NCBI RefSeq assembly: GCF_017355935.1
Contig: NZ_JAFIQT010000003.1
Span: forward strand, 317,450 to 381,449
Direction of reading: 5' to 3'
Source of the DNA: Telluribacter humicola
GTDB taxonomy: Bacteria; Bacteroidota; Bacteroidia; Cytophagales; Spirosomataceae
Length of the DNA: 64,000 nucleotides
Positions 4,951-17,010 of this stretch are shown here, piece after piece; within the stretch, counting starts at the first letter, position 1, and each line of letters starts with the position of its first letter. A model generated the notes under the pieces. That model worked only from the letters and a program-made list of their open reading frames with translations. It made no database searches and was not told where the DNA came from. Made by a program: the position numbers and the translations under genes.

Positions 4951-6222
4951 ATGAGAATACTAATTTATGGCATTAACTATGCACCTGAACTGACGGGCAT
5001 TGGAAAATATACAGGTGAAATGGGAGCTTGGTTGGCCCAGCAAGTCCATGAGGTGTCAGTTATTACAGCCAAGCCTTACTATCCGGAATGGCAGGTACAC
5101 CAGCCGTATAAAGGTAAATGGTGGTATACTGAAGAAATGGAAGGGGTGAAGGTGCATCGTTGTCCTTTATATGTTACCAATCCTACTTCAGCGGCCAAAC
5201 GCATCCTCCATGAATTTTCCTTCGTGCTTAGCTCTCTGATATTTTGGTTGCCGTTTTTTTTTGGCAGACGGCTTGATGTAGTCATTGGTGTATGTCCTCC
5301 TTTTCATCTGGGATTTCTTCCCTTTTTATATTCAAAGCTAAGAGGTGTTCCCTACATCTGCCATACACAGGACCTGCAGGTGGATGCGGCCAAAAACCTG
5401 GGCATGATCAAGAATAAGCGTTTCCTTGACCTGATGTTCAGAGCCGAACACTTTATACTACATCATGCCAAAGCTGTTTCTACCATTAGTACAGGTATGC
5501 AGAAGAAAATTGAGAAGAAAGGCATAGCCTCATTTAGGATACTCCTATTCCCCAATTGGGTTGATGTACAGGCTATTCGTCCACTCTCAAAAGAAGAGTC
5601 TTTAAGGCGGGAGCTAAGTATCGCTGATGATCATAAAGTGGTTCTCTACTCCGGAAACCTGGGTGAGAAGCAAGGGCTGGACCTCCTGATCGAAGCGGCA
5701 CGCCATTTCCCTGACCCACAGGTATGCTTCCTTATCGTAGGTTCAGGAGGCGGGAAAGCGCGGCTAGAGGAGATGGTAGAGCAATATGGCCTTACCAATG
5801 TTCGCTTCCTGCCTTTGCAGCCTTACGAGAAATTATCTGCCTTGCTGGCGACGGCGGATCTGCACCTGGTACTTCAAAAGAAAAAAGCAGCGGACCTGGT
5901 GATGCCTTCCAAGCTAACCAGTATACTAGCCGCTGGTGGCTGTGCACTGGTGACAGCCCTTCCTGAGACTACTCTGTATGAAACAATTCAGAAATATAAT
6001 CTGGGAATATTGATAGAGCCGGAATCGGTAGAGGCGTTAAAAGAGGGGCTGGCTTATGCGTTAGAGTCAGACCTTAAGACATACCGGAGGAACGCCCGTT
6101 TATACGCGCAGGAATTTTTAGAAAAAGAGCATATTATGAAAGCTTTCGAAAAAGAGATTTTACATCTTTCTCTTTCGGAAGAAGTAAAAGAAACAGCTAC
6201 GGCCAATTTAGATTGGCAATAA
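4951..6222 (+). CDS. wcaI: WcaI-like colanic acid glycosyltransferase
   Basis: A 423-residue GT4 enzyme whose N-terminus (MRILIYGINYAPELTGIGKY, then GEMGAWL) and internal CHTQDLQVDAAKNLGM block match the WcaI/putative fucosyltransferase group of colanic-acid-type EPS loci. The donor domain starts at VVLYSGNLGEKQGLDLLIEA (about residue 230) and ends with the MPSKLTSILAAGG stretch near 315, which replaces the classical E-x7-E. It is expected to add one sugar to the undecaprenyl-linked repeat unit in the cytoplasm. It begins 60 bp after the VanZ-like gene and is the last gene before a 415-bp non-coding AT-rich stretch. Its base composition is intermediate between the AT-rich genes to the left and the GC-richer rest. 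Confidence 0.85.
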   Translation: MRILIYGINYAPELTGIGKYTGEMGAWLAQQVHEVSVITAKPYYPEWQVHQPYKGKWWYTEEMEGVKVHRCPLYVTNPTSAAKRILHEFSFVLSSLIFWLPFFFGRRLDVVIGVCPPFHLGFLPFLYSKLRGVPYICHTQDLQVDAAKNLGMIKNKRFLDLMFRAEHFILHHAKAVSTISTGMQKKIEKKGIASFRILLFPNWVDVQAIRPLSKEESLRRELSIADDHKVVLYSGNLGEKQGLDLLIEAARHFPDPQVCFLIVGSGGGKARLEEMVEQYGLTNVRFLPLQPYEKLSALLATADLHLVLQKKKAADLVMPSKLTSILAAGGCALVTALPETTLYETIQKYNLGILIEPESVEALKEGLAYALESDLKTYRRNARLYAQEFLEKEHIMKAFEKEILHLSLSEEVKETATANLDWQ

Positions 6223-6637
6223 TTTGAACATTCAACCACCTAACCTATTGTCCTCTGAAAAACTTTTTAAATGAGACTAATTTTTATTACATAGCTAATA
6301 CTTTTTAGCATTAATCGACTAAGTAAGAACCGTTCGATAAATAGAAATTTATTAACAAAGGAAAATGGATTATTATTTGCAACTTGCCCCTTTAATAAAT
6401 CATTTTTGGATTACTATGCATAACTAATAAAGTTTATCAATTCAATAAATGTTAAAATAACTTTATTAGGCAAAGAAATTAAAAATTGGCTCGATTTTTG
6501 CCTGCCAATCTAGTACCTAAAAAGGCAGCAAGGGAACTGCTAAAAGTAGCTAATCATAATTATTGGTAATTGGTAGATTATCAATATAATACACACCCTC
6601 CTGTAGTGCAAGAAATGATATATCCTCAGTGTCTGTT
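6223..6637 (+). other. AT-rich non-coding leader upstream of the sugar transferase gene
   Basis: 415 bp without a supportable ORF. The first 250 bp are very AT-rich and low in structure. The stretch 6486-6501 is a near-consensus sigma-54 promoter (separate entry). About 120 bp of leader then follow before the ATG at 6638. The AT-rich part could carry enhancer-binding sites for an NtrC-type activator, but no clear inverted-repeat operator was found by eye. Confidence 0.5.
6486..6501 (+). promoter_or_regulatory. Candidate sigma-54 (RpoN) promoter
   Basis: The sequence TTGGCTCGATTTTTGC matches the -24/-12 consensus YTGGCACGRNNNTTGCW at every position except A to T inside the -24 box and the final W. 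The invariant GG and GC doublets are separated by exactly 10 bp. It would start transcription near 6513, about 125 nt before the sugar transferase ATG. No sigma-54 activator is encoded in the window. Confidence 0.6.
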
Positions 6638-8005
6638 ATGAAAAATCGTTCTACTAGTTTACTTCCCAAGGCTCACCTGTGGACGGACATCCTGCTGCTG
6701 AACGCGTCCTTCCTGATCGCCTATCTGCTGCGGATTGAAGAGGGGCTGCTGGAGCAGAATGAGCACTACCTCAACCTGCTGCTGATGAGCAACCTGTTGT
6801 GGGTGCTGATCATCTACTCACTGAAGACCTACCACTTTACGCGCCTGTCGTACAACTTCAACGACCAGATCGGTGGGTTGCTGAAGGCGGCCCTGCTGCA
6901 TGCCTCCTGCACGATAACTCTCCTGTACCTGATCAAGGAAGGAGAGGCTTACTCCCGGGTGCAGATGGGGCTTACCTACGGACTGTTTATCGTTGCGGCG
7001 ACGGGGGCTCGAATAGCCTTGCTGCTCTCAATGCAACTGTACCGCCAGGCCGGCTATAACTCCAAATGCTACGCGGTGATCGGCCACGACGAAGTGATCG
7101 ACTACATCAGGGGCTTCTACGAGCAGCGGCCCCAACTGGGCTACCGCTATAGTGGCCTGTTTGAATTCCGGGGTCAGGCCACCGACGAAGCAGCCCTGGA
7201 AGAATACATGGAAGAAAGAGGGCTGGACTTTATCTACTGCTGCCTGTCGCGGCTCAATGACGAGCAGGTACGTAGCATTATTAGGGTAGCCGAGCGGCAG
7301 CGTACGCAGGTCCGACTGGTACCCGATTTTCGGGGCTTTGTCTCCAACCTGGCTACCATTGAGTACCACGACGTATACCCGGTGATAGACGTGTCGACCA
7401 AGCCCTTTTCGAGCGTACAGGACCAGACGGTGAAGCGGGCCTTTGACCTGGCGTTTTCGCTAACGGTGATGCTGGCGGGTGCGCCTGTATTCCTGCTGGT
7501 GATGGGGGCGGTAAAGCTGACGTCGAAGGGGCCGGTGTTCTTCCTGCAGGAGCGCTCGGGCCAGTGGGGCCGGATCTTTAAGATCTACAAGTTCCGCAGC
7601 ATGTACGTGGATGCTGATAAGATGGGCCTCAAACACTCACAGGGTGACCATGACCCGCGCATTACGCCCATTGGTCGCTTCCTGCGCCGCAGTCGGCTGG
7701 ATGAGTTGCCGCAGTTCCTAAACGTGATCCGGGGGGAGATGTCGATCGTGGGGCCGCGGCCGCTGTACAAGTATGACGTCGATATGCTGATGCAGGCGGC
7801 GCCGCACGAGTTCAAGAAGATACTGACCGTGAAGCCGGGCATAACCTCCATCGGGCAGATCAAGGTAGGCTACGCCACCAATGTAGCGGAGAATGTAAAT
7901 CGTCTCAAGTACGACCTGGAGTACCTGGGCAAGTACAGCCTTCGGCAGGACATCAGTCTGGTGTTTCAGACAGTACTAGTCATGGCTCTTGGCAGAGGAA
8001 GGTAG
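6638..8005 (+). CDS. Undecaprenyl-phosphate sugar phosphotransferase (EPS initiation)
   Basis: A 455-residue polyisoprenyl-phosphate hexose-1-phosphate transferase of the WbaP/WcaJ type, the membrane enzyme that starts EPS repeat-unit synthesis. Four N-terminal helices (about residues 15-125) are followed by a CoA-binding-like Rossmann domain (130-250). After a fifth hydrophobic segment (AFSLTVMLAGAPVFLLVMGA) comes the catalytic sugar-transferase domain with YKFRSMYVDAD, RRSRLDELPQFLNVIRGEMS and VGPRP. ATG 6638 is chosen over the GTG at 6629 because MKNRSTSLLPKAH is a normal family start. Codon use is GC-rich, unlike the genes at 1-4.9 kb. It has its own candidate sigma-54 promoter, so initiation of polymer synthesis may be controlled separately. 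The donor sugar (glucose-1-P or galactose-1-P) is not determinable. Confidence 0.92.
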   Translation: MKNRSTSLLPKAHLWTDILLLNASFLIAYLLRIEEGLLEQNEHYLNLLLMSNLLWVLIIYSLKTYHFTRLSYNFNDQIGGLLKAALLHASCTITLLYLIKEGEAYSRVQMGLTYGLFIVAATGARIALLLSMQLYRQAGYNSKCYAVIGHDEVIDYIRGFYEQRPQLGYRYSGLFEFRGQATDEAALEEYMEERGLDFIYCCLSRLNDEQVRSIIRVAERQRTQVRLVPDFRGFVSNLATIEYHDVYPVIDVSTKPFSSVQDQTVKRAFDLAFSLTVMLAGAPVFLLVMGAVKLTSKGPVFFLQERSGQWGRIFKIYKFRSMYVDADKMGLKHSQGDHDPRITPIGRFLRRSRLDELPQFLNVIRGEMSIVGPRPLYKYDVDMLMQAAPHEFKKILTVKPGITSIGQIKVGYATNVAENVNRLKYDLEYLGKYSLRQDISLVFQTVLVMALGRGR

Positions 8006-8120
8006 TGTCAGTGACCAATTGTGCAGTGACCGGGCGGGAGGCGCCGCTGCCGCTTCGGCGGTCCGACACGGTGGCTCCTCCGACGTTCCGCCAATGTTCA
8101 GTGACCAGTGACCATTGAAC
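8006..8120 (+). repeat. Heptamer/GC-palindrome dispersed repeat, copy a
   Basis: Directly after the TAG of the sugar transferase. CAGTGACC words (8009-8030) lead into a GC-rich insert with GGGCGGGAGGCGCC and GGTGGCTCCTCCG, then more CAGTGACCAGTGACC words (8099-8113). The GC insert can fold on itself. The same composite recurs at 13.9 kb and 29.6 kb. Confidence 0.85.
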
Positions 8121-8468
8121 AATAAAAGCTTGAATGAGCTCCTTTGACCGTCGCCGTGAATAAAGAGTAGTGACAGTTTCATAAACAAAGAAACTCATAA
8201 ACGTTGAACTCATAAACTGAACAACGGCTGCTTATAGATTCTAAATACCCTTAATGGGAGAAAAAAGCTACAAAGGAAGCGTGATAAACGAGCAAAACGT
8301 TCTAATATTGCGTGTTAGTCCGGATAAAGTAGCATGTTTTTCTTACTGGTAAGGGGAGTTGGAACGGAGGAGAAGGAGATCAATCTGGTTGAACGCCCGC
8401 TCCGCCACCCGAATGAAAGTTTACTTTAATAAACCTTATACACAACAAAAACAGAACTACCTTTTCCA
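8121..8468. other. Non-coding interval before lipoprotein paralog A
   Basis: About 350 bp with no supportable gene. At 8178-8215 there is a word repeat (CATAAAC, AACTCATAAACGTTGAAC, ACTCATAAACTGAAC). The purine-rich run GGAGGAGAAGGAGA is at 8365-8380. No clear promoter match or terminator was seen. Confidence 0.5.
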
Positions 8469-9473
8469 ATGAAAAAACGCTATGCATCCCTGTTCGCGTA
8501 CGGTCTCTTCGCTACGCTGGCCCTTTACAACTGTAAGGACCACGAAACTCCTACCCCTACCCCTGATTTTGAAAACGAAGTATCGGGCATTGTTGTAGAG
8601 CAAGTAACCCTGACCGCTCCGGCTGCCGTTACGGCTCAATCAAGTACCTTTACGGCTCCAACTAATACCACCATCAGCAGCTACACCGGGGGTGCTCCAT
8701 CCCAGGCGGTGCAGGATGCCGCTGGTCAGGTAAGTTCTACCCTGAGCAACGGCGAAATCACGGCGCTGAACAACATCACGCCGGCTCAGCTTCAGGACGT
8801 GGCCAATGGTGGAACCCTGCCCGCAGATCTTAAAACGGCGCTGGATAAGATCAAGGCCAACCCAGCACTGGCTGGCTTCCTGCCTACCTTTACGCTGCCT
8901 CAGGTAAACGGAAGCGCCGTAACCGGCCGTACCGGGCTGCCCGAGCTGCTCGATCAGGTAGAGGCGATCAAAGCGGACGATGCCTGTCTTAAGAAAGCGC
9001 AGGATGCCCTGGCTAACGTGATCAACAAGCTGAAGGCGGATGCCAAGACGCAGCAGGACAAAGTAGATGCCGAAGCCCAGAAGCAGATAACGGATGCTAA
9101 CGCGGCCGAAACCAGCTGTAAAGCGGGTATACCTGCTACCTTTGCGGCCTACCGCACCGCGGCTAAAACGCAGTTTGATGCGACCATGGCTACACTGGAC
9201 AACAACCAGGCTGCCCTGGGTACGAATTATGCTATCCTGAAAGCGCTGGTGATCGTATCGTATGGCTCAGCCCTGGATACCATCAACGCGCTGGAAAAAG
9301 CCGAGACTGCTGCCTGTACCGCTAAAAAGAATGCTGCCATTGCCAACGCCAATGCCGCGAAGACCGAGAACACCAACAAGGTAACGGCTGCTCTGAACAA
9401 GGGACTGACTACGGCTAATGACAAAATCAAAGAACTGGCTGCCCCTTGCCACAACCAGGGAGGAGGAAAGTAA
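8469..9473 (+). CDS. Putative lipoprotein of unknown family, CHNQGGGK paralog A
   Basis: I do not recognise a family. The 334-residue protein has a lipoprotein-type signal (KKRYASLFAYGLFATLALYN, then Cys22), a proline/threonine-rich linker, and an Ala/Lys/Asp-rich body predicted to be mostly helical and possibly coiled-coil. Besides Cys22 it has four cysteines (in DDAC, ETSC, TAAC and the terminal PCHNQGGGK). The minus-strand gene at 12796-13800 has exactly the same length, a signal with Cys19, four cysteines in the same order, shared GF-x-P-x-x-TLP and RTG blocks, and the same last eight residues. Two disulphides in a periplasmic or surface lipoprotein is an inference. The YjbH-like pair lies directly downstream, so a link to EPS export or attachment is plausible. 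A heptamer repeat follows the stop. Confidence 0.75.
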   Translation: MKKRYASLFAYGLFATLALYNCKDHETPTPTPDFENEVSGIVVEQVTLTAPAAVTAQSSTFTAPTNTTISSYTGGAPSQAVQDAAGQVSSTLSNGEITALNNITPAQLQDVANGGTLPADLKTALDKIKANPALAGFLPTFTLPQVNGSAVTGRTGLPELLDQVEAIKADDACLKKAQDALANVINKLKADAKTQQDKVDAEAQKQITDANAAETSCKAGIPATFAAYRTAAKTQFDATMATLDNNQAALGTNYAILKALVIVSYGSALDTINALEKAETAACTAKKNAAIANANAAKTENTNKVTAALNKGLTTANDKIKELAAPCHNQGGGK

Positions 9474-9477
9474 TTTA

Positions 9478-9520
9478 CAGTGATCAATGACCAGTGACCA
9501 ATGACCAATGACCAATGAAG
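9478..9520 (+). repeat. Heptamer dispersed repeat, copy b (pure tandem form)
   Basis: The clearest tandem copy: after the TAA of paralog A the sequence steps through GATCAAT GACCAGT GACCAAT GACCAAT GACCAAT with a strict 7-bp period and no GC insert. Confidence 0.9.
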
Positions 9521-9567
9521 AGTACTAGTTATTGATTCATAAAGTGACTGGTTAGGAAATTGTGAGG

Positions 9568-10434
9568 ATGAGCATGATGCTAAATAAACTCATAGCAAAA
9601 AGGGGTAGTGTAATACTACCCTTTTTTGTGTTTTGGCTGATGGCCTTGAATGGCTACGCCCAAATGAATCTCTCGGGTAAGCCAGGACTGATGTATATAC
9701 CCACAGCCCGCGAAACAGCGGATGGTACCTTTACCGTTGGGTACGCCTATAACCCCGAAAGATACGGACTCCGCTCTATCAGGTATCGTCAGCAAAATGG
9801 CACCTTATATTCAGAGCGGGTATTGTATGCCACTCTTACCCTACTACCACGACTGGATATCAACGTAAATTTGCTACACCTGAATGGATCAAATATACCT
9901 CTGACCGAAAGGGGAATTGGTGACCGGCAATTAGATATACGTTATCTATTGTTAAAAGAGAAAGAAATAAGGCCCTCAGTAGCGGTAATCATGTCCTCTC
10001 CCTTTACAGTGGACGCTTCTATGGTCACGTATGCACTCGTAGCTACCAAGCATCTTAAGCTTACGGATGATCTGCAGGCTGAGATTTCGGCAGGTATGGG
10101 TAGCCCCTACTATATATTCCGGGATGAAAACATTAACAACAATGTTGACGTATTCTCGAAATTCAAGCTGCGTAAGAAGAGTGAGGATATCTATAACAAC
10201 GGCTACCTGACTGGACCCTTCGGCGGTATAAGCGTAAACTACCGGAAGCGGGTGGGCCTGATGGCCGAATGGGACTCGCAGCGCGTGAACGTAGGTGGCT
10301 ACGCTACGCTGTGGAAGCGCTGGACCATCCAGGCGGGCCTGCTCAACTTTGACCAGGTTACCTTTGGTACCTCGTACACCGTACAACTCAACGCCCTCCC
10401 CCGTCCCCTCCGGAAACTCCATGAAACAGAATAA
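9568..10434 (+). CDS. YjbH-like EPS outer-membrane protein, N-terminal half
   Basis: A 288-residue exported protein (signal peptide to about residue 32, cleavage near NGYAQ). Mature residues begin NLSGKPGLMYIPTARETADG followed by TFTVGYAYNP. This is the diagnostic opening of the YjbH/YmcA exopolysaccharide family, beta-barrel proteins of the EPS secretion apparatus; alternating hydrophobic strands (LYATLTLLPRLDINVNLLHL) fit an outer-membrane barrel. Classical YjbH is about 700 residues. This gene covers only the front part and the next gene seems to carry the rest. Start: GTG 9562, ATG 9568 and ATG 9574 are all in frame; 9568 is preferred with AGGAAA upstream. The end overlaps the next gene by 14 bp. 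Family call fairly sure, exact function inferred. Confidence 0.7.
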   Translation: MSMMLNKLIAKRGSVILPFFVFWLMALNGYAQMNLSGKPGLMYIPTARETADGTFTVGYAYNPERYGLRSIRYRQQNGTLYSERVLYATLTLLPRLDINVNLLHLNGSNIPLTERGIGDRQLDIRYLLLKEKEIRPSVAVIMSSPFTVDASMVTYALVATKHLKLTDDLQAEISAGMGSPYYIFRDENINNNVDVFSKFKLRKKSEDIYNNGYLTGPFGGISVNYRKRVGLMAEWDSQRVNVGGYATLWKRWTIQAGLLNFDQVTFGTSYTVQLNALPRPLRKLHETE

Positions 10435-11593
10435 ACTCTTTCCTCTCCTGCTCCTGCTGGGCCTTGTGGCACCGGTCCGTCCGGCGCAGGCCCAATCTAC
10501 TCCGGCGGCCCGCCCCTCCCTCCGGCAGAACTTTGAGAATATCTCCATTGATACCACCGGCCGGGAGGGGGGTACGGTCTACTACGAACAGCGCCTGTAC
10601 CGCAACCCCTTTGTGGGGCTCGCCCAGATGCGCCACTCCGTGGGGCACTCCCTCGGCCAATCCAGCCCAATCAGGGAGTACGTCCCCCTGATCCAGGGCG
10701 TACCGGTGGGAGCGTACCGCTTCGATACGGCCGCGCTGGCATACCGGTCCCTGAGCCGGGAAGAGCGGAAAGGGTACTACTTCCACCATCCGTACCGCCC
10801 GTGGCGGCAGTACAAGTGGGACTTCTGGCTGCAGCCGCAGTTTGCGGCCTACTTCGGCAACCACAACCAGCCCATCGAAAGCAATACGGCCGTACTGCTG
10901 CAGAGCCAGCTGTACCTGACGCGCGGCCTGGTGCTGAACTGGGGCGTGCTGTTCCCGATCACCAACGAGCTCGACAACCGGCCTAATATCGTACGTCCGG
11001 CTCCTGTATTCCTGAACCAGTTTCTGGCGCTGGAAGGCGATCACTACCTCAGTGCCTCGGCAGGCTTCTTCCACGATGACCAGTACGGCCTGAACCTGCA
11101 GTACCGCCACATGCCGCTGAGCGGGGCGTGGTCGTTCGGCCTGGAGACGGGCCTGACGGGCGAGTACTACTTTACAAAGCGGGGGGCCATCTACGGGCAC
11201 CTGGATAACCTGCTGCTGCTGGCGGATGTGGCCTACCGCCTCCCCCACCCCGACCTGACGCTGAAGCTGTCGGGCGGTCAGTACCTGGCCGATGACGTGG
11301 GCGCACGCGTAGATATCATCAGGCAGTTTACGAACGTGGAGGTAGGGCTGTACACCACCAAGAGCCGCAACGGCGCGACGCTGGGCTTTAACCTGGCGGT
11401 ACCCATTCCACCCGGCAAACTGTGGCAGGGCAACCACGCCCGCCTGCGTACGGGAGAGGAGTTCCGGTGGGAGTATACCTACACGCGGGGCTACAACATC
11501 GGGGAACGCTACCGCACCGGCTACCAGCTGGACCAGCGCCTCCGACAGTACCATCGCAACTACCTGAACCGCCAGTACCAGATGCTTAAATAA
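10421..11593 (+). CDS. YjbH-like EPS outer-membrane protein, C-terminal half
   Basis: A 390-residue exported protein with its own signal peptide (NKLFPLLLLLGLVAPVRPAQ, cleavage near AQAQS). The body is rich in amphipathic strands. The late segment LKLSGGQYLADDVGARVDII, then RQFTNVEVGLYTT and GFNLAVPIPPGKLW, resembles the C-terminal barrel of YjbH proteins (G-x-YLA-x-D-x-G, then GF and IP). ATG 10421 is inside the preceding gene (14-bp overlap, different frame). Together the two total 678 residues, about one YjbH. Because the second half has a complete signal peptide, this is a real two-gene split and not a frameshift. An alternative is an unrelated outer-membrane porin-like protein. An imperfect 12-bp hairpin follows the stop. 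Confidence 0.55.
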   Translation: MKQNKLFPLLLLLGLVAPVRPAQAQSTPAARPSLRQNFENISIDTTGREGGTVYYEQRLYRNPFVGLAQMRHSVGHSLGQSSPIREYVPLIQGVPVGAYRFDTAALAYRSLSREERKGYYFHHPYRPWRQYKWDFWLQPQFAAYFGNHNQPIESNTAVLLQSQLYLTRGLVLNWGVLFPITNELDNRPNIVRPAPVFLNQFLALEGDHYLSASAGFFHDDQYGLNLQYRHMPLSGAWSFGLETGLTGEYYFTKRGAIYGHLDNLLLLADVAYRLPHPDLTLKLSGGQYLADDVGARVDIIRQFTNVEVGLYTTKSRNGATLGFNLAVPIPPGKLWQGNHARLRTGEEFRWEYTYTRGYNIGERYRTGYQLDQRLRQYHRNYLNRQYQMLK

Positions 11594-11598
11594 ACAGA

Positions 11599-11630
11599 GA
11601 GCCGTTGTCCGGAAGGTCGGGCGGCGGCTC
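11599..11630 (+). terminator. Hairpin after the YjbH-like pair
   Basis: A 12-bp stem (GAGCCGTTGTCC with GGGCGGCGGCTC, three G-U pairs) and an 8-nt loop begin 6 bp after the stop. There is no T-run after it, so an intrinsic terminator is uncertain; it may stabilise the 3' end instead. Confidence 0.35.
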
Positions 11631-11696
11631 CTATAGACCCCTGCCCAACGTAAAGGAAGCAGCAGGATATATATAGTAGCTAAACCTAGTCAACAT

Positions 11697-11774
11697 CCCC
11701 TCTCCCCCCTTCCTCCTCTCCTCCGGCCGCCTTTCCCCTTTCCTCCCCTCCTCCTTTCCCCCTTTCCTCCTTCC
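11697..11774 (+). repeat. Polypyrimidine tract, CTTTCCTCC words
   Basis: About 78 bp that are almost only C and T on the plus strand, with repeated CTTTCC and CCTCC words; the purines are confined to one CCGGCCGCC. Similar tracts occur at 15599-15661 and 44966-45022, and in purine orientation at 14003-14038. The rest of 11594-11961 holds no gene that I can support. Confidence 0.8.
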
Positions 11775-11961
11775 AAAAACCATGTAACCGCTATAGCCCC
11801 TGCCCGTTTACGATAAGTTGAGCCATAACCAACTGTATACTAGACAAATCCCGTACACAGTAGTAACTTTACAAGAACTTAATGAGCGTCATAGCGGATG
11901 AATGGGGGAAGAGTTATATTTCGTGAGAATATATACCTCCTGTTCCATTACTATACCGCAC

Positions 11962-12288
11962 ATGAAAAAGTCAAACATTTTTGCCTACGTCGAGCTGTCC
12001 AAGCTGGTAGGTAACCTTGAGGGAACCCCTCTGAAAGAACGCCTCAAATCGCAGGCCGCTTACTTTAACATTATCGAAAGCCGGCTATTCTCAGATGAAC
12101 TGGCCAAAGACTGGGAAGCGATCGTTAGCTCGGTAAAACCGGCCGCCGTTCCTACTGTGGCAGGAGACCGGGTATCGCTCAGCCAGGTTGCCGGTACCAT
12201 CGAGCAGATGAACGAAAAAGACTGCCAGCTCCTGGCCACCCGCCTGAAAGCCCTGCACCAAAAGCTGGAAGCGGAAATAAATCAGTGA
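11962..12288 (+). CDS. Small hypothetical protein, 108 aa
   Basis: No family recognised. The 108-residue product (MKKSNIFAYVELSKLVGNLE onward) is predicted to be soluble, helical and cytoplasmic with no signal or membrane segment. ATG 11962 is preferred over the in-frame ATG at 11902, whose extra 20 residues (ELYFVRIYTSC) look like untranslated leader. The last residues INQ and the stop (AATCAGTGA) run into a heptamer repeat, so part of the C-terminus may be repeat-derived. It stands alone between the YjbH-like pair and a strong hairpin at 12416-12461. Codon periodicity looks normal, so it is probably real. Confidence 0.6.
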   Translation: MKKSNIFAYVELSKLVGNLEGTPLKERLKSQAAYFNIIESRLFSDELAKDWEAIVSSVKPAAVPTVAGDRVSLSQVAGTIEQMNEKDCQLLATRLKALHQKLEAEINQ

Positions 12289-12292
12289 ATTT

Positions 12293-12348
12293 CAATGACC
12301 AGTGACCGGGCGGCGTTCCGCCAGTTACCAATGTCCAGTGGCCAATGT
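12293..12348 (+). repeat. Heptamer/GC-palindrome dispersed repeat, copy c
   Basis: AATGACCAGTGACC, then a minimal GC hairpin (GGCGG-CGTT-CCGCC), then CAGTTACCAATGTCCAGTGGCC. It starts 5 bp after the stop of the 108-aa gene and reads in the same direction as that gene. Confidence 0.85.
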
Positions 12349-12415
12349 AAAAATTACTTAGTAGTTGGTAGAGATGGGTGGGTGGGGTGAAGGCAACCGG
12401 GAATTGATACTCCAA

Positions 12416-12461
12416 AAACACGAAAGCCGCCGTAGCTCTTGCTGCGGCGGCTTTCGTGTTT
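12416..12461 (+). terminator. Strong hairpin with GAAAGCCGCC arms, terminator-like
   Basis: A 17-bp perfect stem, 12416-12432 with 12445-12461 (AAACACGAAAGCCGCCG and its complement), flanked by A-rich and T-rich ends so it could act on both strands. It is placed to end the 108-aa gene transcript. Its core recurs in the hairpin at 12639. Confidence 0.7.
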
Positions 12462-12638
12462 GGGTATGCCAGGTAGCTCCTACACCACCTATTTCTTGCC
12501 CTGTCCTTCACAAGGCCCTCGCCCGCTCCATACAGGACTGTGGAGACACAGCCCACGGACAGCCTATGAAAAGATCCGGCCCACAGATTGGGAAACCAGG
12601 GGTGGAGTGGGACGGAGTGGTATAACCAAAACGAAGAA
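12462..12638. other. Non-coding spacer between two related hairpins
   Basis: About 180 bp between convergent transcription units. The apparent ORFs here are short, lack initiation context and read through hairpin arms. I see nothing else in it. Confidence 0.5.
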
Positions 12639-12666
12639 AGCCGCCATAGCAAAGGCTACGGCGGCT
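12639..12666 (-). terminator. Hairpin with the same arms, probable terminator of paralog B
   Basis: AGCCGCCATAGC at 12639-12650 pairs with GCTACGGCGGCT at 12655-12666 (one mismatch). Read on the minus strand it is followed by TTTCTTCGTTTT, so it could terminate the minus-strand lipoprotein gene. The arms are nearly the same as those of the hairpin at 12416. Confidence 0.6.
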
Positions 12667-12747
12667 CATTAATCTATTCAATGCAGTGTTCCTGACTAAA
12701 AAACCTGAATAGTACTTTATCAGTCTGACAGAAGCTCAAGTACCAGA

Positions 12748-12786
12748 AACATTGGTCACTGGTCACTGAACACTGGTCATTGAAAC
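12748..12786 (-). repeat. Heptamer dispersed repeat, copy d
   Basis: ATTGGTCACTGGTCACTGAACACTGGTCATTGAA on the plus strand, meaning TGACCA words on the minus strand, just downstream of the paralog B stop. No GC insert. Confidence 0.88.
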
Positions 12787-12795
12787 CACTGAAAA

Positions 12796-13800
12796 CTACT
12801 TCCCTCCTCCCTGGTTGTGGCAGGCGGCAATGATGGCGTTGGCGATGCCGGTGGCTTTGTCGGCCTCCTTTTTATAACCTGCTTCAATGCTTTGCTTGTT
12901 GGCGTTCAGCGCAGCCAGCGCGGCAGCCTCACGAAGGGACTGAGCCTGGGTACAGGCCGTCAGCTCCTGCTGATAGATGGTATTGATGGCGTCCAGCTCG
13001 GCGTAGAACAGGGCGTTGAGCGCGGCGGCGCTGGTGGTATTCTTCTTGTTCTTTTCCAGATCGCTGTACAGCTTCTTGTACTTCTTGTCCAGTTCCTGCA
13101 CGGCCGACTTGCGGTTTTTATCGGCTTCGCACTGCCCCCCCGAACGGGCTTCTTTCAGGGCCTTCTGGTACTCGGCTTCGGCTTTGTCCAGCTGGTCACC
13201 CTTTTTGTCCTGTAGCTTCTGGAGTACTTTCTGCAGAGCCTCCAGGGCAGAGCTCTTACAGCCGTCCTCGCCTTTCATTACCTCCTCGATCAGGACGGGA
13301 GCGCTGGTCTCTTCCACGGCTCCCGTACGGGCAGCGGCGGGCTTACCCTGCACGACGGGCAACGTGAGCTGGGGCATAAAGCCGGCGGCCTGGGCCGGAA
13401 GGCTTTTGAAGGAGTTGATAAACCCCTTCTGGGCACCGGTATACGCCTTCTGGCTCATGATCTGCGTCAGGGTAGCGGAGTTTGTTTCGCGGATGACGGC
13501 ACTGGCTTCGGCCTTGGGTGCCGTATTGATAACAGCATTAGCAAACTGCTCGGTAGAAGCCGACAGCTTACCCGCACCGGACAGCTCGGTACCGGCCGTA
13601 GCCCCCAGAGCCGACACGGTGACCGCACCGGGAGAAACCGTGATGGGAGCCGGACGCTCGAGGGTCACCTGGGGCAGGTCTACTTTTTCCAGATCTTGTA
13701 GTGAATAGCCGAAAGGATCGACAGAGGAGAGTTCCTGGGGGGAGCAGCTATACAGGAAAGCCACTACACCGGCCGTGTAGAGTAAAATTTTTCTTTTCAT
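12796..13800 (-). CDS. Putative lipoprotein of unknown family, CHNQGGGK paralog B
   Basis: The divergent paralog of the gene at 8469-9473: also 334 residues, with a lipoprotein-type signal (MKRKILLYTAGVVAFLYS, then Cys19) and an N-terminal linker region. A Lys/Glu/Ala-rich helical C-terminal half contains four cysteines in the same order (EDGC, GGQC, LTAC, AACHNQGGGK). Shared blocks are GFMPQLTLP against GFLPTFTLP, RTG, LDAINTIYQQELTAC against LDTINALEKAETAAC, and the identical terminal octapeptide. ATG 13800 is chosen because it opens a proper lipoprotein signal; the 25 residues upstream in frame do not. It is oriented opposite to the YjbH-like genes, so the two copies flank them. Function unknown. 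Confidence 0.75.
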   Translation of the reverse strand: MKRKILLYTAGVVAFLYSCSPQELSSVDPFGYSLQDLEKVDLPQVTLERPAPITVSPGAVTVSALGATAGTELSGAGKLSASTEQFANAVINTAPKAEASAVIRETNSATLTQIMSQKAYTGAQKGFINSFKSLPAQAAGFMPQLTLPVVQGKPAAARTGAVEETSAPVLIEEVMKGEDGCKSSALEALQKVLQKLQDKKGDQLDKAEAEYQKALKEARSGGQCEADKNRKSAVQELDKKYKKLYSDLEKNKKNTTSAAALNALFYAELDAINTIYQQELTACTQAQSLREAAALAALNANKQSIEAGYKKEADKATGIANAIIAACHNQGGGK

Positions 13801-13888
13801 GAGAACGAGGATAACGTTGAGTAAAGCACGTTTTTGTGCTGGTGACAAAGAACTAAAAGAAAAACCCGAAAACACGACCGTTCACGAA

Positions 13889-14005
13889 ATCAATGACCGC
13901 TAGTCAATGTCTAGTGAGCAGTGACCAGTGATCAATGACCAGTGACCGCAGCGGGAGGCGCCCCTCCGGCGGATGCCAGTTATCAGTGATCAATGACCAA
14001 TGAGG
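13889..14005 (+). repeat. Heptamer/GC-palindrome dispersed repeat, copy e
   Basis: A long composite: CAATGACCGCTAGTCAATG, several CAGTGACCAGTGATCAATGA words, then GCGGGAGGCGCCCCTCCGGC, then CAGTTATCAGTGATCAATGA. It lies upstream of paralog B and downstream of hemB, opposite in orientation to both. Confidence 0.87.
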
Positions 14006-14038
14006 AGAAAAGGAGGAAAGGAGATGGGAGGAAAGCAG
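14003..14038 (+). repeat. Polypurine tract
   Basis: GAGGAGAAAAGGAGGAAAGG then AGATGGGAGGAAAGCAG. It shares GAGAAAAGGAGGAA and GGGAGGAAAGCAG words with the reverse complement of the tract at 15599-15661. Confidence 0.7.
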
Positions 14039-14100
14039 TGACGGGTTATAAGTGATCGGGAGGGAGGTGCTCTATCAGGGAATGGTCATTGTCAGGGAAT

Positions 14101-14136
14101 AAAAAAAGCCCACACGCTTAACTGAAGGTGTGGGCT
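14101..14136 (-). terminator. Intrinsic terminator of hemB
   Basis: AGCCCACAC (14107-14115) pairs with GTGTGGGCT (14128-14136). On the minus strand the stem is followed by seven T (AAAAAAA at 14101-14107 on the plus strand). It lies about 155 bp downstream of the hemB stop. Confidence 0.8.
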
Positions 14137-14164
14137 CTACTTTACTTGGGTACCTATTATGTTA

Positions 14165-14212
14165 ACCACAGAGGTAAAAGGAGTAAAAGCACAGAGTAAC
14201 GCTGAGTTTTTC
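14165..14212 (+). repeat. CACAGAG-word repeat, copy 1
   Basis: ACCACAGAGGTAAAAGGAGT, then AAAAGCACAGAGTAACGCTG and AGTTTTT: imperfect repeats of CACAGAG separated by A-rich spacers. A second copy is at 15523-15568. Confidence 0.7.
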
Positions 14213-14223
14213 ATTCCTCCGCG

Positions 14224-14302
14224 CGGTCAATGGTCACTGGTAATTAGTCACTGTAAGCTGATCATTGGTCACTGGTCAATGGTAATTGGTCACTGATCAT
14301 TG
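14224..14302 (-). repeat. Heptamer dispersed repeat, copy f, running into the hemB 3' end
   Basis: About ten TGACCA/TGATCA words on the minus strand. The repeat overlaps the hemB coding end: AATGATCAGTGACC supplies codons N-D-Q and the TGA stop (14290-14292). Confidence 0.88.
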
Positions 14303-15273
14303 AGCACCTCCGCTACTTCTTTGGCGAAGTAGGTAAGGATGACCTTGGCTCCGGCGCGGCGGATGCTGAGCAGAACCTCCAGCATAGCCCGTTGCCCATC
14401 GATCCAGCCGTTCTGACCGGCGGCTTTGATCATGGCGTACTCACCCGATACGTTATACGCAGCAATGGGCAGATCAAAATGGTCGTGGAGCAGACGGATA
14501 ATATCCAGGTACGACAGGGCGGGCTTGACCATCAGGAAGTCAGCTCCTTCTTCGACGTCGAGCTGGGCTTCGATCAGGGCCTCGCGGCGGTTGGCGGGGT
14601 TCATCTGGTAGGTCTTCTTATCGCCAAAGCGGGGAGCCGACGCGAGGGCATCCCGGAAGGGACCGTAGAACGAGCTGGCGTACTTGGCGGTATAGGACAT
14701 GATGCTCACATGGGAGTAGCCTTCGGTGTCGAGCAGGTCGCGGATGTAGCCCACGCGGCCATCCATCATATCGCTGGGGCCGAGGATATCGGCACCGGCT
14801 TTGGCCTGGGCCACGGCCATCTTGCCCAGTACCTCAAGGGTCAGGTCATTGACGATCTCCCCGTTCTCGACCACGCCGTCGTGCCCGTCGCTGCTGTAGG
14901 GGTCCATGGCGATGTCGGTCATCAGGGCCAGGTCGGGGAATTGGTCCTTAATGGCCTTGAGGGTATCGAGGTACAGGGTACCTTCACGGTGGCTCTCGGT
15001 GGCGTACTTGTCCTTTTTGTCTTCGGGGTACATCGGAAACAGACAAATGGCCTTGATACCCAGGTCGGTGACCTCTTTCAGCTCTTCGAGCAGCGTGTCT
15101 TTGGAAAAACGGGAGATGCCGGGCAGGGACTTGATCTCGGTGCGCAGACCGGAACCTTCCTGCACGAACATAGGGAATATCAGATCCGAAACCTGCAGGG
15201 TAGTTTCCTGCGCCAGCTCACGAAGGGCGGCGGACTTACGGTTGCGGCGGGGACGACGGGGTATGTAGATCAT
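14290..15273 (-). CDS. hemB: Delta-aminolevulinic acid dehydratase (porphobilinogen synthase)
   Basis: A 327-residue cytosolic enzyme that condenses two 5-aminolevulinate molecules to porphobilinogen in haem and corrinoid synthesis. The Schiff-base lysines are visible: K197 in MSYTAKYASSFYGPFRDA and K250 in FLMVKPALSYLDI. In the metal site the zinc-binding cysteines of the E. coli/human type are replaced by the Asp-type sequence DIAMDPYSSDGHDG (residues 120-133), so the enzyme should not need catalytic zinc and is probably Mg-stimulated. Length is normal. The last three residues (NDQ) and the stop are encoded by an intergenic repeat. It is monocistronic, with a terminator at 14101-14136. High confidence. 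Confidence 0.97.
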   Translation of the reverse strand: MIYIPRRPRRNRKSAALRELAQETTLQVSDLIFPMFVQEGSGLRTEIKSLPGISRFSKDTLLEELKEVTDLGIKAICLFPMYPEDKKDKYATESHREGTLYLDTLKAIKDQFPDLALMTDIAMDPYSSDGHDGVVENGEIVNDLTLEVLGKMAVAQAKAGADILGPSDMMDGRVGYIRDLLDTEGYSHVSIMSYTAKYASSFYGPFRDALASAPRFGDKKTYQMNPANRREALIEAQLDVEEGADFLMVKPALSYLDIIRLLHDHFDLPIAAYNVSGEYAMIKAAGQNGWIDGQRAMLEVLLSIRRAGAKVILTYFAKEVAEVLNDQ

Positions 15274-15282
15274 TGTTTTAGA

Positions 15283-15314
15283 GCTTTAGGCTATATGCTG
15301 TATGCAATACGCTT
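15283..15314 (+). repeat. GCTATATGC-word repeat
   Basis: GCTTTAGGCTATATGCTGTA then TGCAATACGC, a quasi-tandem of TATGC words just upstream of hemB. Short and low in information. Confidence 0.4.
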
Positions 15315-15338
15315 TTAGTAATCAATACTACTAACAAA

Positions 15339-15364
15339 AACGGCTGAATCCAGATTCAGCCGTT
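15339..15364 (-). terminator. Intrinsic terminator downstream of the response regulator operon
   Basis: A perfect 12-bp stem, AACGGCTGAATC (15339-15350) with GATTCAGCCGTT (15353-15364), with an A-run before it on the plus strand, i.e. a T-run after it on the minus strand. It lies about 320 bp past the response regulator stop and 65 bp before the hemB start. Confidence 0.75.
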
Positions 15365-15381
15365 GCAAAGATAGTTTGTAG

Positions 15382-15416
15382 GAATTCTGAATGATGAATT
15401 ATGAATGCTGAATTCT
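15382..15416 (+). repeat. TGAAT-word repeat
   Basis: GAATTCTGAATGATGAATTA then TGAATGCTGAATTC: six imperfect copies of a TGAAT word with a period of 6-8 bp. Confidence 0.7.
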
Positions 15417-15522
15417 CTTCTGCCATTTGTAAAGTGGCTTGAACAGCAGATAGTTTACCACCTATTAGATGGCAGGGGGAAACCTAATGACACGCTGTTA
15501 CTTTTTTAACCGCCCGGCGGCC

Positions 15523-15568
15523 CGGCACAGAGTAAAAAAGAGTCTTTCACAGAGAGCCACAGAGTTTG
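15523..15568 (+). repeat. CACAGAG-word repeat, copy 2
   Basis: GGCACAGAGTAAAAAAGAGT, then CTTTCACAGAGAGCCACAGA and GTTTG: the same word family as at 14165-14212. It directly follows a GC-rich CCGCCCGGCGGCCCGG palindrome at 15509-15524. Confidence 0.7.
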
Positions 15569-15598
15569 TTTGTATCTGTTAGAAAAAGACGAGTATAT

Positions 15599-15661
15599 CC
15601 TTTCCTCCGAGCGGCGGCCGCCCTTCCTCCTTTTCTCCCTTCCTGCTTTCCTCCCTCTCCC
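15599..15661 (+). repeat. Polypyrimidine tract with GC palindrome
   Basis: CCTTTCCTCC, then a GCGGCGGCCGCC palindrome, then repeated CCTTCCTCC/CTTTTCTCCC words to 15661, abutting a heptamer repeat. It is the pyrimidine-strand relative of the tract at 14003-14038. Confidence 0.75.
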
Positions 15662-15682
15662 ATTGGTCACTGGTCATTGCCT
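15661..15682 (-). repeat. Heptamer dispersed repeat, copy g
   Basis: CATTGGTCACTGGTCATTGC on the plus strand. On the coding strand it follows the response regulator TAG after two bases (GCAATGACCAGTGACCAATG). Confidence 0.85.
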
Positions 15683-16379
15683 AGCTGCTCATCAGCTTAA
15701 ACCCTTCGCCGTGCAGGTTCATAAGTTGGACGTCGGGATCTTCGCGGAGGTGCTTGCGGAGCTTGGTCACGTATACATCCATGCTGCGGGCGTTGAAGTA
15801 GGAGTCATCGCCCCAGATCATCTTGAGGGCGTAGCTGCGGCTGATGGGTTGGTTGAGGTTCTGGCAGAATAGCTTGAGCAGCTCTGATTCCTTACTGGTG
15901 AGCCGGGTGGTGTCGCCGGCGCGGCGAAGCTGCTGGTGGTCGTAGTCGAAGGTATAGGAGCCTACCTGGTAGATATGCGTGTCGACGGCGCTGTCGGCCG
16001 CGCCGTTGCCGGGCTGCCGACGGTACCGGCGCAGGATCGCCTCAATGCGCAGCAGGAGTTCGTCCTGATCGAAGGGTTTGGTAACGTAGTCGTCGCCCCC
16101 GATCCGGAAGCCCTGGATGGTATCTTCCTTCATGGACTTGGCCGTGAGGAAAATGATAGGTACATCTTTCCCGCTCATGCGTACTTCCTTAGCCAGCGAA
16201 AAACCATCCTTGCGGGGCATCATGACGTCGAAGATACAGAGGTCATATTCGTTATCCACAAAAGCCTGCCACCCTTGCTGCCCATCGGTAGCCAGGTCGG
16301 TAGGGTAGCCTTTGTGGGTCAGGTACTCCTGCAGGAGCCCTCCCAGATTCGGATCGTCTTCAACTAATAAAATTTTCAT
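15681..16379 (-). CDS. OmpR-family response regulator
   Basis: A 232-residue two-component regulator. The receiver domain (residues 1-118) has the acidic pair E7-D8-D9, phospho-acceptor D51 (CIFDVMMPRKDG) and K in FLTAKS near 101. The C-terminal winged helix (about 135-230) has LTSKESELLKLFCQN and SRSYALKMIWGDDSYFNARS. The start at 16379 (MKILLVEDDP) is chosen; the 16 upstream in-frame residues (LVTDNWSLK) are a translated repeat. It is the obvious partner of the histidine kinase at 16985-18859, but a four-helix-bundle gene lies between them. The regulon is unknown. Stop TAG is followed immediately by a heptamer repeat. Confidence 0.93.
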   Translation of the reverse strand: MKILLVEDDPNLGGLLQEYLTHKGYPTDLATDGQQGWQAFVDNEYDLCIFDVMMPRKDGFSLAKEVRMSGKDVPIIFLTAKSMKEDTIQGFRIGGDDYVTKPFDQDELLLRIEAILRRYRRQPGNGAADSAVDTHIYQVGSYTFDYDHQQLRRAGDTTRLTSKESELLKLFCQNLNQPISRSYALKMIWGDDSYFNARSMDVYVTKLRKHLREDPDVQLMNLHGEGFKLMSS

Positions 16380-16381
16380 TT

Positions 16382-16430
16382 TCAGTGACCAGTTATCAGT
16401 GACCAATGACCGCGCGGCGGCCGCCAATTA
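16382..16430 (+). repeat. Heptamer/GC-palindrome dispersed repeat, copy h
   Basis: CAGTGACCAGTTATCAGTGA then CCAATGACCG and the palindromic CGCGGCGGCCGCCA (16413-16426). The 14-mer recurs inverted at 16968-16981 on the other side of the four-helix-bundle gene. Confidence 0.88.
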
Positions 16431-16516
16431 ATTAATAATAAAATGACTGCTTCACAGCGACTACCTCAACTACACATATCACATCATTGCTCATTGCATT
16501 ACTTAGTGATCATTAA

Positions 16517-16933
16517 TTACTGTTTATCGATTCTTGTTGTTTTTAGTATAGCGTAAAGGAGTTTAGATAATTCACGGGAGGCGATCCTCTGTGCATCAGT
16601 ATTCATGCTGATATAGACTTTCTCTTCTATAAACCCTGTATCTTTCAGCAGGGAGAGCCAATACTTGGTTTCTAAACACTCTTTATAGGCAATAGATATT
16701 TTATTTGAAAAATCAGCTTTTGATATAGCCCCATTGGCTTCAGAAACATTTGCCCCGATGGAAGTACCCGCCCGGAGCAACTGTTTCGATAACACAAACT
16801 CCCTTTTCTCCTCATTCAAAAACTGATACGCTTTTACAACACGTATGGCAAAGGCATACGCCTTCTCATACAACAAATTCCCCTCCTTCATATCATAAAA
16901 GTAGCTATCATCACTCAATTCCACCTCCAACAC
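16517..16933 (-). CDS. Four-helix-bundle protein (23S rRNA IVS / Avd-like family)
   Basis: The 138-residue protein matches the IVS-type four-helix-bundle family: LYEKAYAFAIRVVKAYQFL, then FVLSKQLLRAGTSIGANVSE, then AISKADFSNKISIAYKECLE, ending in a helix with SRELSKLLYAILKTT. These proteins were first noted inside 23S rRNA intervening sequences and include bAvd of diversity-generating retroelements; as stand-alone genes their role is unknown, possibly nucleic-acid binding. No rRNA or reverse transcriptase lies nearby. It is inserted between a histidine kinase and its response regulator and is bracketed by inverted repeat copies h and i. Its DNA is more AT-rich than the two flanking genes. Together these point to a later insertion. 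Family call firm. Confidence 0.9.
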   Translation of the reverse strand: MLEVELSDDSYFYDMKEGNLLYEKAYAFAIRVVKAYQFLNEEKREFVLSKQLLRAGTSIGANVSEANGAISKADFSNKISIAYKECLETKYWLSLLKDTGFIEEKVYISMNTDAQRIASRELSKLLYAILKTTRIDKQ

Positions 16934-16958
16934 CTGATCATTCCTCAGAAAACTGATA

Positions 16959-17010
16959 ACCGATCACTGGCGGCCGCCGCGTGGTCACTGGTCACTGAAC
17001 ACTGGTAATT
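16959..17010 (-). repeat. Heptamer/GC-palindrome dispersed repeat, copy i
   Basis: On the minus strand: CAGTGTTCAGTGACCAGTGA, then CCACGCGGCGGCCGCCAGTG and ATCGG. It overlaps the 3' end of the histidine kinase gene and supplies its last codons (V-F-S-D-Q-stop). The 14-mer at 16968-16981 is the inverted partner of that in copy h. Confidence 0.88.

Follow-up and report, generated by a model that had tools for sequence, protein, structure and literature searches.

What do two lipoproteins with the same ending do on either side of a split outer-membrane protein? The question is raised by a locus of Telluribacter humicola, contained in the 64,000-nucleotide stretch of DNA analyzed here (the window), in which two lipoprotein genes, P0001 and P0002, enclose the two halves of a YjbH/GfcD-type protein (YjbH-N and YjbH-C) next to an exopolysaccharide (EPS)-like cluster (Table 1). 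By sequence comparison, P0001 and P0002 belong to one unnamed lipoprotein family, called CHNQG here after its ending. In the host's taxonomic family (Spirosomataceae) the occurrence of these lipoproteins follows that of YjbH almost completely, and a similar His/Gly tail was observed on lipoproteins in YjbH-C clusters of other Bacteroidota. We propose, with a probability of about 0.5, that the lipoprotein is a stable accessory subunit of YjbH-C, in the place taken in E. coli by GfcB and GfcC, and that its tail is recognized by the YjbH-C side.

The two lipoproteins and their family

The initial annotation, made from the letters of the DNA, had described two lipoproteins of 334 residues, each with a lipobox Cys, four further ordered Cys, GF-x-P-x-x-TLP and RTG blocks and an identical CHNQGGGK end. 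Translation confirmed all of these features, with Cys residues at positions 22, 173, 217, 283, and 327 in P0001 and 19, 181, 224, 283, and 327 in P0002. For P0002 we took the ATG at 13800 as the start; the mechanical open reading frame (ORF) starts upstream of it, with a GTG (13875). The two proteins are 30% identical over 349 alignment columns (BLASTP, E 2e-22). A search of the host genome with P0001 found P0001 and P0002 as the only members, and a degenerate codon pattern for CHNQG gave two matches in the 6.56 Mb genome, exactly at these two genes, against none for the reversed control pattern. Searches of Pfam and NCBIfam returned only sub-threshold matches for either protein, in agreement with the annotation, which had recognized no family.

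The first contig scan, with P0001 alone as the query, confirmed no relative. P0002 as the query matched 32 of 121 genomes of the host's taxonomic family, and a profile built from 29 sequences matched 79 of 222, spread over 16 of 36 genera and holding 87 strong copies. Named genera with relatives are Fibrella, Spirosoma, Runella, Dyadobacter, Arundinibacter, and Rhabdobacter, the last placed by NCBI in Cytophagales, Cytophagaceae. A scan of 291 genomes at the order level gave 23 matches, 18 of them from the host's taxonomic family; clear members outside it were found in two genomes (G782 and G825), together with three short N-terminal matches. At the class level, the same profile gave four matches in 395 genomes, three from the host's taxonomic family and one, in G146, that we rejected as a lipobox-only match to an unrelated ORF with repeats.

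Conservation was determined on 89 members distinct by their last 120 residues (87 from the host's taxonomic family and two from a second Bacteroidota family, f2), among which some genomes may be of the same species. Cys173 and Cys327 (P0001 numbering) are present in 89 of 89 members, while Cys217 and Cys283 occur together in 81 and are both absent from eight. The Cys173-Cys217 spacing equals 44 residues in 72 of these 81, and the Cys283-Cys327 spacing in 80 of 81. The invariance and the equal length claimed in the annotation hold for P0001 and P0002, but not beyond the pair: family-wide, the end reads C in 100%, H in 98%, N in 89%, Q in 99%, and G in 100% of the members, followed by variable last residues. 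Exact CHNQG was found in 78 of 89, the other endings being CHDQG (6), CEEQHDQG (2), CEYQQG (2), and CHNEG (1). Since synonymous CHNQG codons vary across these 78 members, the constraint acts on the protein, and we rejected the idea of a tail signal acting at the nucleotide level. Residues past Cys327 are conserved above the rest of the protein, yet predicted to be flexible. No O-glycosylation-type motif, D[ST][AILVMTC], was found in 44 of the 89.

Predicted fold and disulfides

The structure prediction proposed in the annotation was run for P0001 with AlphaFold on 13 sequences (predicted local distance difference test, pLDDT, 81.5; predicted template-modeling score, pTM, 0.72). The model comprises a helical domain (approximately residues 34–150), a low-confidence linker and two long helices, 173–245 (with one-residue breaks) and 253–327, paired as a long antiparallel hairpin; 75 residues at 0.15 nm each give a hairpin length of ~11 nm. 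As the two 44-residue spacings are equal, the two Cys pairs would lie opposite each other in such a hairpin. From this geometry and the joint loss of Cys217 and Cys283 we infer two nested disulfides, Cys173-Cys327 and Cys217-Cys283, which fit the predicted hairpin. The disulphide-locked end that had been suggested earlier thus gains evidence from the joint loss and the equal arms, with the bonds themselves still predicted.

Searches with the fold gave no specific relative. Foldseek with the whole model as the query returned no match at E 0.001 or below; the best VIA match (Z 7.9, root-mean-square deviation 9.7 over 221 residues) belonged to generic coiled coils, and the best hit of a PDB sequence search with the family profile (E 0.022) was likewise coiled-coil-like. 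Hydrophobicity periods gave only a hint of an 11-residue repeat in the hairpin arms.

The split YjbH pair and its link to the lipoprotein

Both genes between the lipoproteins match PF06082 (YjbH/GfcD) over the cut-off of 24 bits, YjbH-N with 45.8 and YjbH-C with 47.5 bits, and YjbH-C overlaps YjbH-N by 14 bases. On a fused Fibrella protein of 633 residues, YjbH-N aligns to 5–267 and YjbH-C to 281–633, which, with the PF06082 matches, bears out the earlier description of split YjbH genes. E. coli GfcD is reported to consist of an N barrel (19–278), a middle domain (279–423), and a C barrel (424–698) that has a lateral opening and is plugged by its C-terminus (PMC11494523). The side-by-side alignment and this layout therefore place the break at the junction of N barrel and middle domain. 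In the YjbH-C model, a middle domain (five strands, with helices) precedes 13 long barrel strands and two C-terminal helices; its best match in a PDB fold search was a porin (E 5e-4, template-modeling score 0.30). Judged by sequence and by the YjbH-C model, the window pair probably represents a double barrel of the GfcD type, encoded by two genes.

PF06082 matched 78 of the 222 genomes of the host's taxonomic family, and all 78 carry the lipoprotein (Fisher p 4e-60, kinship ignored). The co-occurrence that the annotation had proposed to check is thus nearly complete in this family, with 79 lipoprotein-positive genomes in all. For at least 77 of the 87 strong copies, a listed YjbH match is no more than 2.5 kb away; at least 76 of them are upstream of YjbH on the same strand, and P0002 is the 77th. 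The enclosing pair itself did not prove to be a conserved layout: most positive genomes have one strong copy, usually upstream of YjbH, and in the window P0001 is upstream of and co-directional with YjbH, with P0002 on the other strand. In the other searched genome of the host genus (G015), the P0002 ortholog is found on another contig, away from YjbH matches, and adjoins a HemB-like gene (named by eye). The remaining ten strong copies are those of G571, G053, G547, G550, and G568 and five second copies (one each in G015, G546, and G573 and two in G061). In G571 the lipoprotein falls just past the 2.5 kb cut, with YjbH upstream. We also observed that in G568 (L073), G547 (L076), and G550 (L077) the lipoprotein adjoins a common hydrolase-like gene (MxQLKKEDIKQEVFDLYDDYAHDRIDRRNF type) and not YjbH.

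Loci of Spirosoma and Fibrella follow the order lipoprotein, ~240-residue protein, YjbH (split or fused), Wza-like, Wzc-like, the last two named by eye. In several f2 genomes, as in Spirosoma and Fibrella, an outer-membrane-looking protein of about 230–250 residues separates the lipoprotein from YjbH (L036-L040, L176:8189-8941, L177:5694-6389, and L181:4485-5174). Beyond the host's taxonomic family, the clear relatives (G782, G825, G932, G938, G943, and G952) are all located in YjbH clusters. In two genomes, G819 (L152 and L160) and G932 (L177 and L178), YjbH-N and YjbH-C occupy separate loci and the lipoprotein sits with YjbH-C. The YjbH-N genes of these genomes were seen among polysaccharide-type genes. 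Gene context is what suggests an EPS role for the lipoprotein.

The His/Gly tail in other Bacteroidota

Two further Bacteroidota families, f2 and f34, were read for lipoproteins near YjbH. YjbH was found in seven of 80 drawn f2 genomes, and with G782 added eight genomes were read; in eight of eight, the cluster holding YjbH-C contains a tail-bearing lipoprotein (a second locus in G943 is cut by the contig end). When compared with a hidden Markov model (HMM) built from the host's taxonomic family alone, six of the eight are homologous (E 3e-14 to 3e-32, Z=5000). The seventh, in G936, ends in KKHNQGGGQ and has no detectable homology (E 1.1); its body looks peptidase-like, for which Pfam gave no support. 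The eighth, in G819, ends in KECHDSGG and gave no significant match. In f34, YjbH is present in 11 of 76 genomes; in ten of these, a total of 11 lipoproteins were found next to YjbH-C or one gene away, ending for example in HTGGGN, GHSGGSGR, or HGHGTDPNAGGGIVIAD, and none of the 11 significantly matched the HMM. Thus, each of the 19 lipoproteins read in YjbH-C clusters of f2 and f34 has a His/Gly tail, 13 of them without significant similarity to the CHNQG family. YjbH-C was called in these 19 clusters by PF06082 over the cut-off in 11, below the cut-off in seven, and by position only in one (G848). Four stretches with YjbH-N only (G193, G895 contig 12, the first locus of G819, and G932 contig 87) contained no such lipoprotein in the portions read.

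To describe the tail we used a looser pattern, which requires a His with two or more Gly after it within the last 22 residues. It was found in 19 of 19 lipoproteins vs. 24 of 646 background ORFs; among background ORFs that carry a lipobox-like Cys, four of 147 had it. The background consisted of mechanical ORFs, from which known family members and any ORF bearing C[HE][NDEY][QE] close to its end had been removed. The idea of a tail arose after two tails (G819 and G319) had been seen; a stricter pattern was set when the final five f2 loci were still to be read, three of which hold it, and the looser one after all had been seen. Among the 15 lipoproteins read after the idea, the looser pattern was present in 15, the stricter in 13, and a third one, confined to the last 12 residues, in 12. 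The recognition tag of the initial annotation is therefore strengthened by the similar tail on YjbH-cluster lipoproteins without detectable homology; contact with YjbH is the part we infer.

A model for the tail and its alternatives

We suggest that the P0001/P0002 family would be dedicated to a YjbH/GfcD-type outer-membrane apparatus, here made as two proteins: the YjbH-N barrel, and YjbH-C with the middle domain and a GfcD-C-type barrel. The lipoprotein body, made up of a small helical domain plus a two-helix hairpin (~75 residues per helix), would be stapled at its base by Cys173-Cys327, and usually also half-way up by Cys217-Cys283. The base staple would hold the extreme C-terminus in place, and the HNQGxG tail beyond it would be what the YjbH-C side recognizes. 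Other Bacteroidota may keep the His/Gly tail on a different body; as the tail persists while the body changes, it is the best candidate for this recognition. The shared ending suggests a docking tag for an export machine.

Several observations weigh against a stable subunit held by its tail. One genome of the 79, G568, has the lipoprotein without a YjbH match. In G053 the lipoprotein lies 27 kb from YjbH, beside Wza/Wzc-like genes (by eye), in G547 and G550 YjbH is on another contig, and the five second copies are away from listed YjbH matches. G902 and G865 have the lipoprotein beside YjbH-N, and YjbH-C comes after that. The P0001 model has low confidence in the tail, over its last five residues. 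The tail pattern is loose, and the stricter H.{0,9}GG was found in 15 of 19 vs. three of 646 background ORFs. The 19 tail-bearing lipoproteins form eight single-linkage BLASTP clusters, several of which share a transthyretin-like domain, and six f34 members (with the PEGA match of G319 counted among or related to these) match DUF3869, CarboxypepD_reg, or PEGA-type domains over the cut-off; because domains are shared between clusters, the independent cases of the tail are fewer than eight. Moreover, a swapped body with a kept tail would fit a cargo at least as well as a subunit.

That the lipoprotein is a cargo exported by YjbH-C is a possible explanation, though we consider it rather unlikely. 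The His/Gly tail would then act as a C-terminal export signal, the protein would pass the barrel while its lipid leaves by the lateral gate, and the varied bodies would bind or hold polysaccharide at the cell surface. A constant tail on a changing body is what this predicts, GfcD-C has been modeled with a lateral opening that would serve lipid-anchored export (PMC11494523), extra lipoprotein copies lie away from YjbH in genomes with YjbH elsewhere, and an extracellular role in adhesion or carbohydrate binding has been proposed for DUF3869 relatives (PMC4387736). However, most genomes have a single copy, as expected of a subunit, and 75-residue hairpins would need passage or unfolding. In five f2 genomes HNQGxG codons gave matches in four, where the C-terminal matches in real genes are YjbH-linked lipoproteins, at most one per genome, and the others are internal or in short non-coding frames. 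A surface signal after the lipobox is not established either: two acids within the next five residues were found in 34 of 88 members, with the lipobox Cys picked automatically and wrongly in some rows. The more specific proposal, that the tail is a portable signal acquired by bodies without detectable homology and that the lateral-gate YjbH-C/GfcD-C handles lipoproteins as cargo, we hold to be unlikely; if true, it would make the YjbH/GfcD family a lipoprotein exporter, in Bacteroidota at least.

The tail could instead be a structural end that caps the hairpin base beside the Cys173-Cys327 staple, in which case co-occurrence with YjbH would reflect a shared EPS locus without contact, and similar tails elsewhere would be convergent metal- or wall-binding His/Gly ends. 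The universal base staple, the His-rich DUF3869 ends, for which binding of metals or of charged wall moieties has been proposed (PMC4387736), and the G053 lipoprotein with its Wza/Wzc-like neighbors agree with this. Yet the residues past the staple are conserved above the rest of the protein while predicted flexible, HNQGGG occurs in a YjbH cluster on the G936 protein, which has no detectable homology, without an equally spaced staple next to CxxHNQ, and the presence or absence of the lipoprotein tracks YjbH almost exactly; we therefore regard a purely structural role as distinctly improbable. Finally, all these proteins, including those of G936, G819, and the DUF3869 type, might be one highly diverged family in which the tail is inherited and not portable. 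They share genomic place and lipoprotein nature, and in G819 a GNCG precedes the ECHDSGG end, a motif also found in G782, a helical relative. Nevertheless, the HMM that finds six f2 relatives misses G936, G819, and all 11 f34 proteins, hhalign of G819 aligned just the signal-peptide region, and DUF3869 is a beta-sandwich (PMC4387736) whereas the CHNQG family is modeled as helical, so that a single family appears very improbable.

With these alternatives weighed, an accessory subunit of YjbH-C is the reading we favor. GfcD homologs are described as widespread in outer membranes (PMC11494523), and the authors of a 2021 study stated that they had no direct data to annotate GfcD function (PMC8592465). 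A short, exactly placed tail on lipoproteins of YjbH-C clusters that have no detectable homology would offer a concrete handle on that function, and the natural split of the barrels, with separate loci in G819 and G932, provides a natural test of whether they form one machine or two.

Neighboring features in the window

Downstream of YjbH-C, a small protein gave no Pfam or NCBIfam match and may belong to the YjbH system. Similar small proteins, which share with it the start MKxSNIFAYxEL, were seen by eye beside YjbH at L041:13485-13871, L045:13164-13493, L079:4273-4602 and 5446-5772, and L150:6612-6932; G015 has two copies, and in G547 the protein is beside a fused YjbH, with the lipoprotein on another contig. 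The priming glycosyltransferase-like gene has similar neighbors in L041, L045, L046, and L079. A 7-base tandem repeat, CAGTGACCARTG, gave 30 matches in the window (at most one mismatch) vs. 0.38 expected; 28 of the 30 fall at 8.0–17.0 kb (8009–16997), mostly in intergenic gaps.

Table 1. Coordinates and supporting evidence for features of the P0001–P0002 locus (window positions).
Feature	Position	Strand	Basis
Priming glycosyltransferase-like gene, end of EPS-like cluster	6629..8005	+	named by eye
P0001, CHNQG-family lipoprotein, 334 aa	8469..9473	+	translation, profile family, AlphaFold model
P0001 layout: signal and lipobox Cys22; helical domain ~34-150; linker 154-170; helical hairpin 173-327; tail 327-334			
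P0001 codons of C-terminal CHNQGGGK octapeptide	9447..9470	+	sequence, family conservation
YjbH-N, putative N-terminal barrel half of split YjbH/GfcD	9562..10434	+	PF06082 E 5.2e-12, profile 5-245 of 658
YjbH-C, putative middle domain and C-terminal barrel	10421..11593	+	PF06082 E 1.6e-12, best stretch 480-597
Small protein, ~108 aa, no signal (ORF listed from 11902)	11962..12288	+	recurrent near YjbH
P0002, divergent paralog, 334 aa, opposite strand to P0001	12796..13800	-	translation, 30% identity, profile match
P0002 codons of C-terminal CHNQGGGK octapeptide	12799..12822	-	sequence

Comparison with known systems

A parallel in position is E. coli GfcB/YjbF (PF11102), a lipoprotein encoded, like P0001, just upstream in a YjbH/GfcD operon. 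The E. coli order gfcB-gfcC-gfcD-gfcE-etp-etk is comparable to the Spirosoma and Fibrella loci, and GfcB, reported to have a LolA-like fold, binds GfcD together with GfcC (PMC8592465). By analogy, the lipoprotein would resemble GfcB as a YjbH/GfcD accessory, yet it is no member of the GfcB family: PF11102 gave no match to P0001 or P0002 at E up to 1, against E 1.2e-69 for the E. coli gfcB control. Unlike the window proteins, GfcB and YjbF are devoid of a His/Gly tail. E. coli K-12 gfcA (L172:8440-8745) and yjbE (L171:2907-3149) encode small Thr-rich proteins that are Gly-rich near the C-terminus (NDSGDGGSHNTST and TGGGDGSNTG), stretches that are possibly a counterpart of the tail.

The window YjbH-C model, with its five-strand/helix middle domain and 13 long barrel strands, resembles GfcD, for which a periplasmic middle domain of five strands and three helices (PMC8592465) and a C barrel of 13 strands are described, on one chain with the N barrel. 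The protein is split in the window, whereas it is fused in Fibrella and, judged from the length of the open frames, in several further genomes.

In the literature searched, we found neither the helical family nor its stapled tail described, nor any report that the tail recurs on lipoproteins lacking detectable homology, and the parts of PMC4387736 consulted mention neither the helical CHNQG family nor a link of tail and YjbH. What was already known, from 2015, are the His-rich C-termini of Bacteroides DUF3869 lipoproteins and their DUF940 and OmpA-like gene neighbors (PMC4387736), DUF940 being the GfcD/YjbH family (PMC8592465). PF12985, the DUF3869 N-terminal transthyretin-like domain, gave no match to P0001 or P0002 at E up to 1; it is over the cut-off in four of the 11 f34 partner lipoproteins, and the partner in G914 matches 3kog through the last residue (E 2.2e-45). 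DUF3869 structures are two-domain beta-sandwiches, in contrast to the modeled helices of the P0001/P0002 family. With DUF3869 (PF12985; BVU_4064/3kog and BF1687/3g3l) P0001 and P0002 nevertheless have in common a lipobox, a DUF940 neighbor, and a His/Gly C-terminus.

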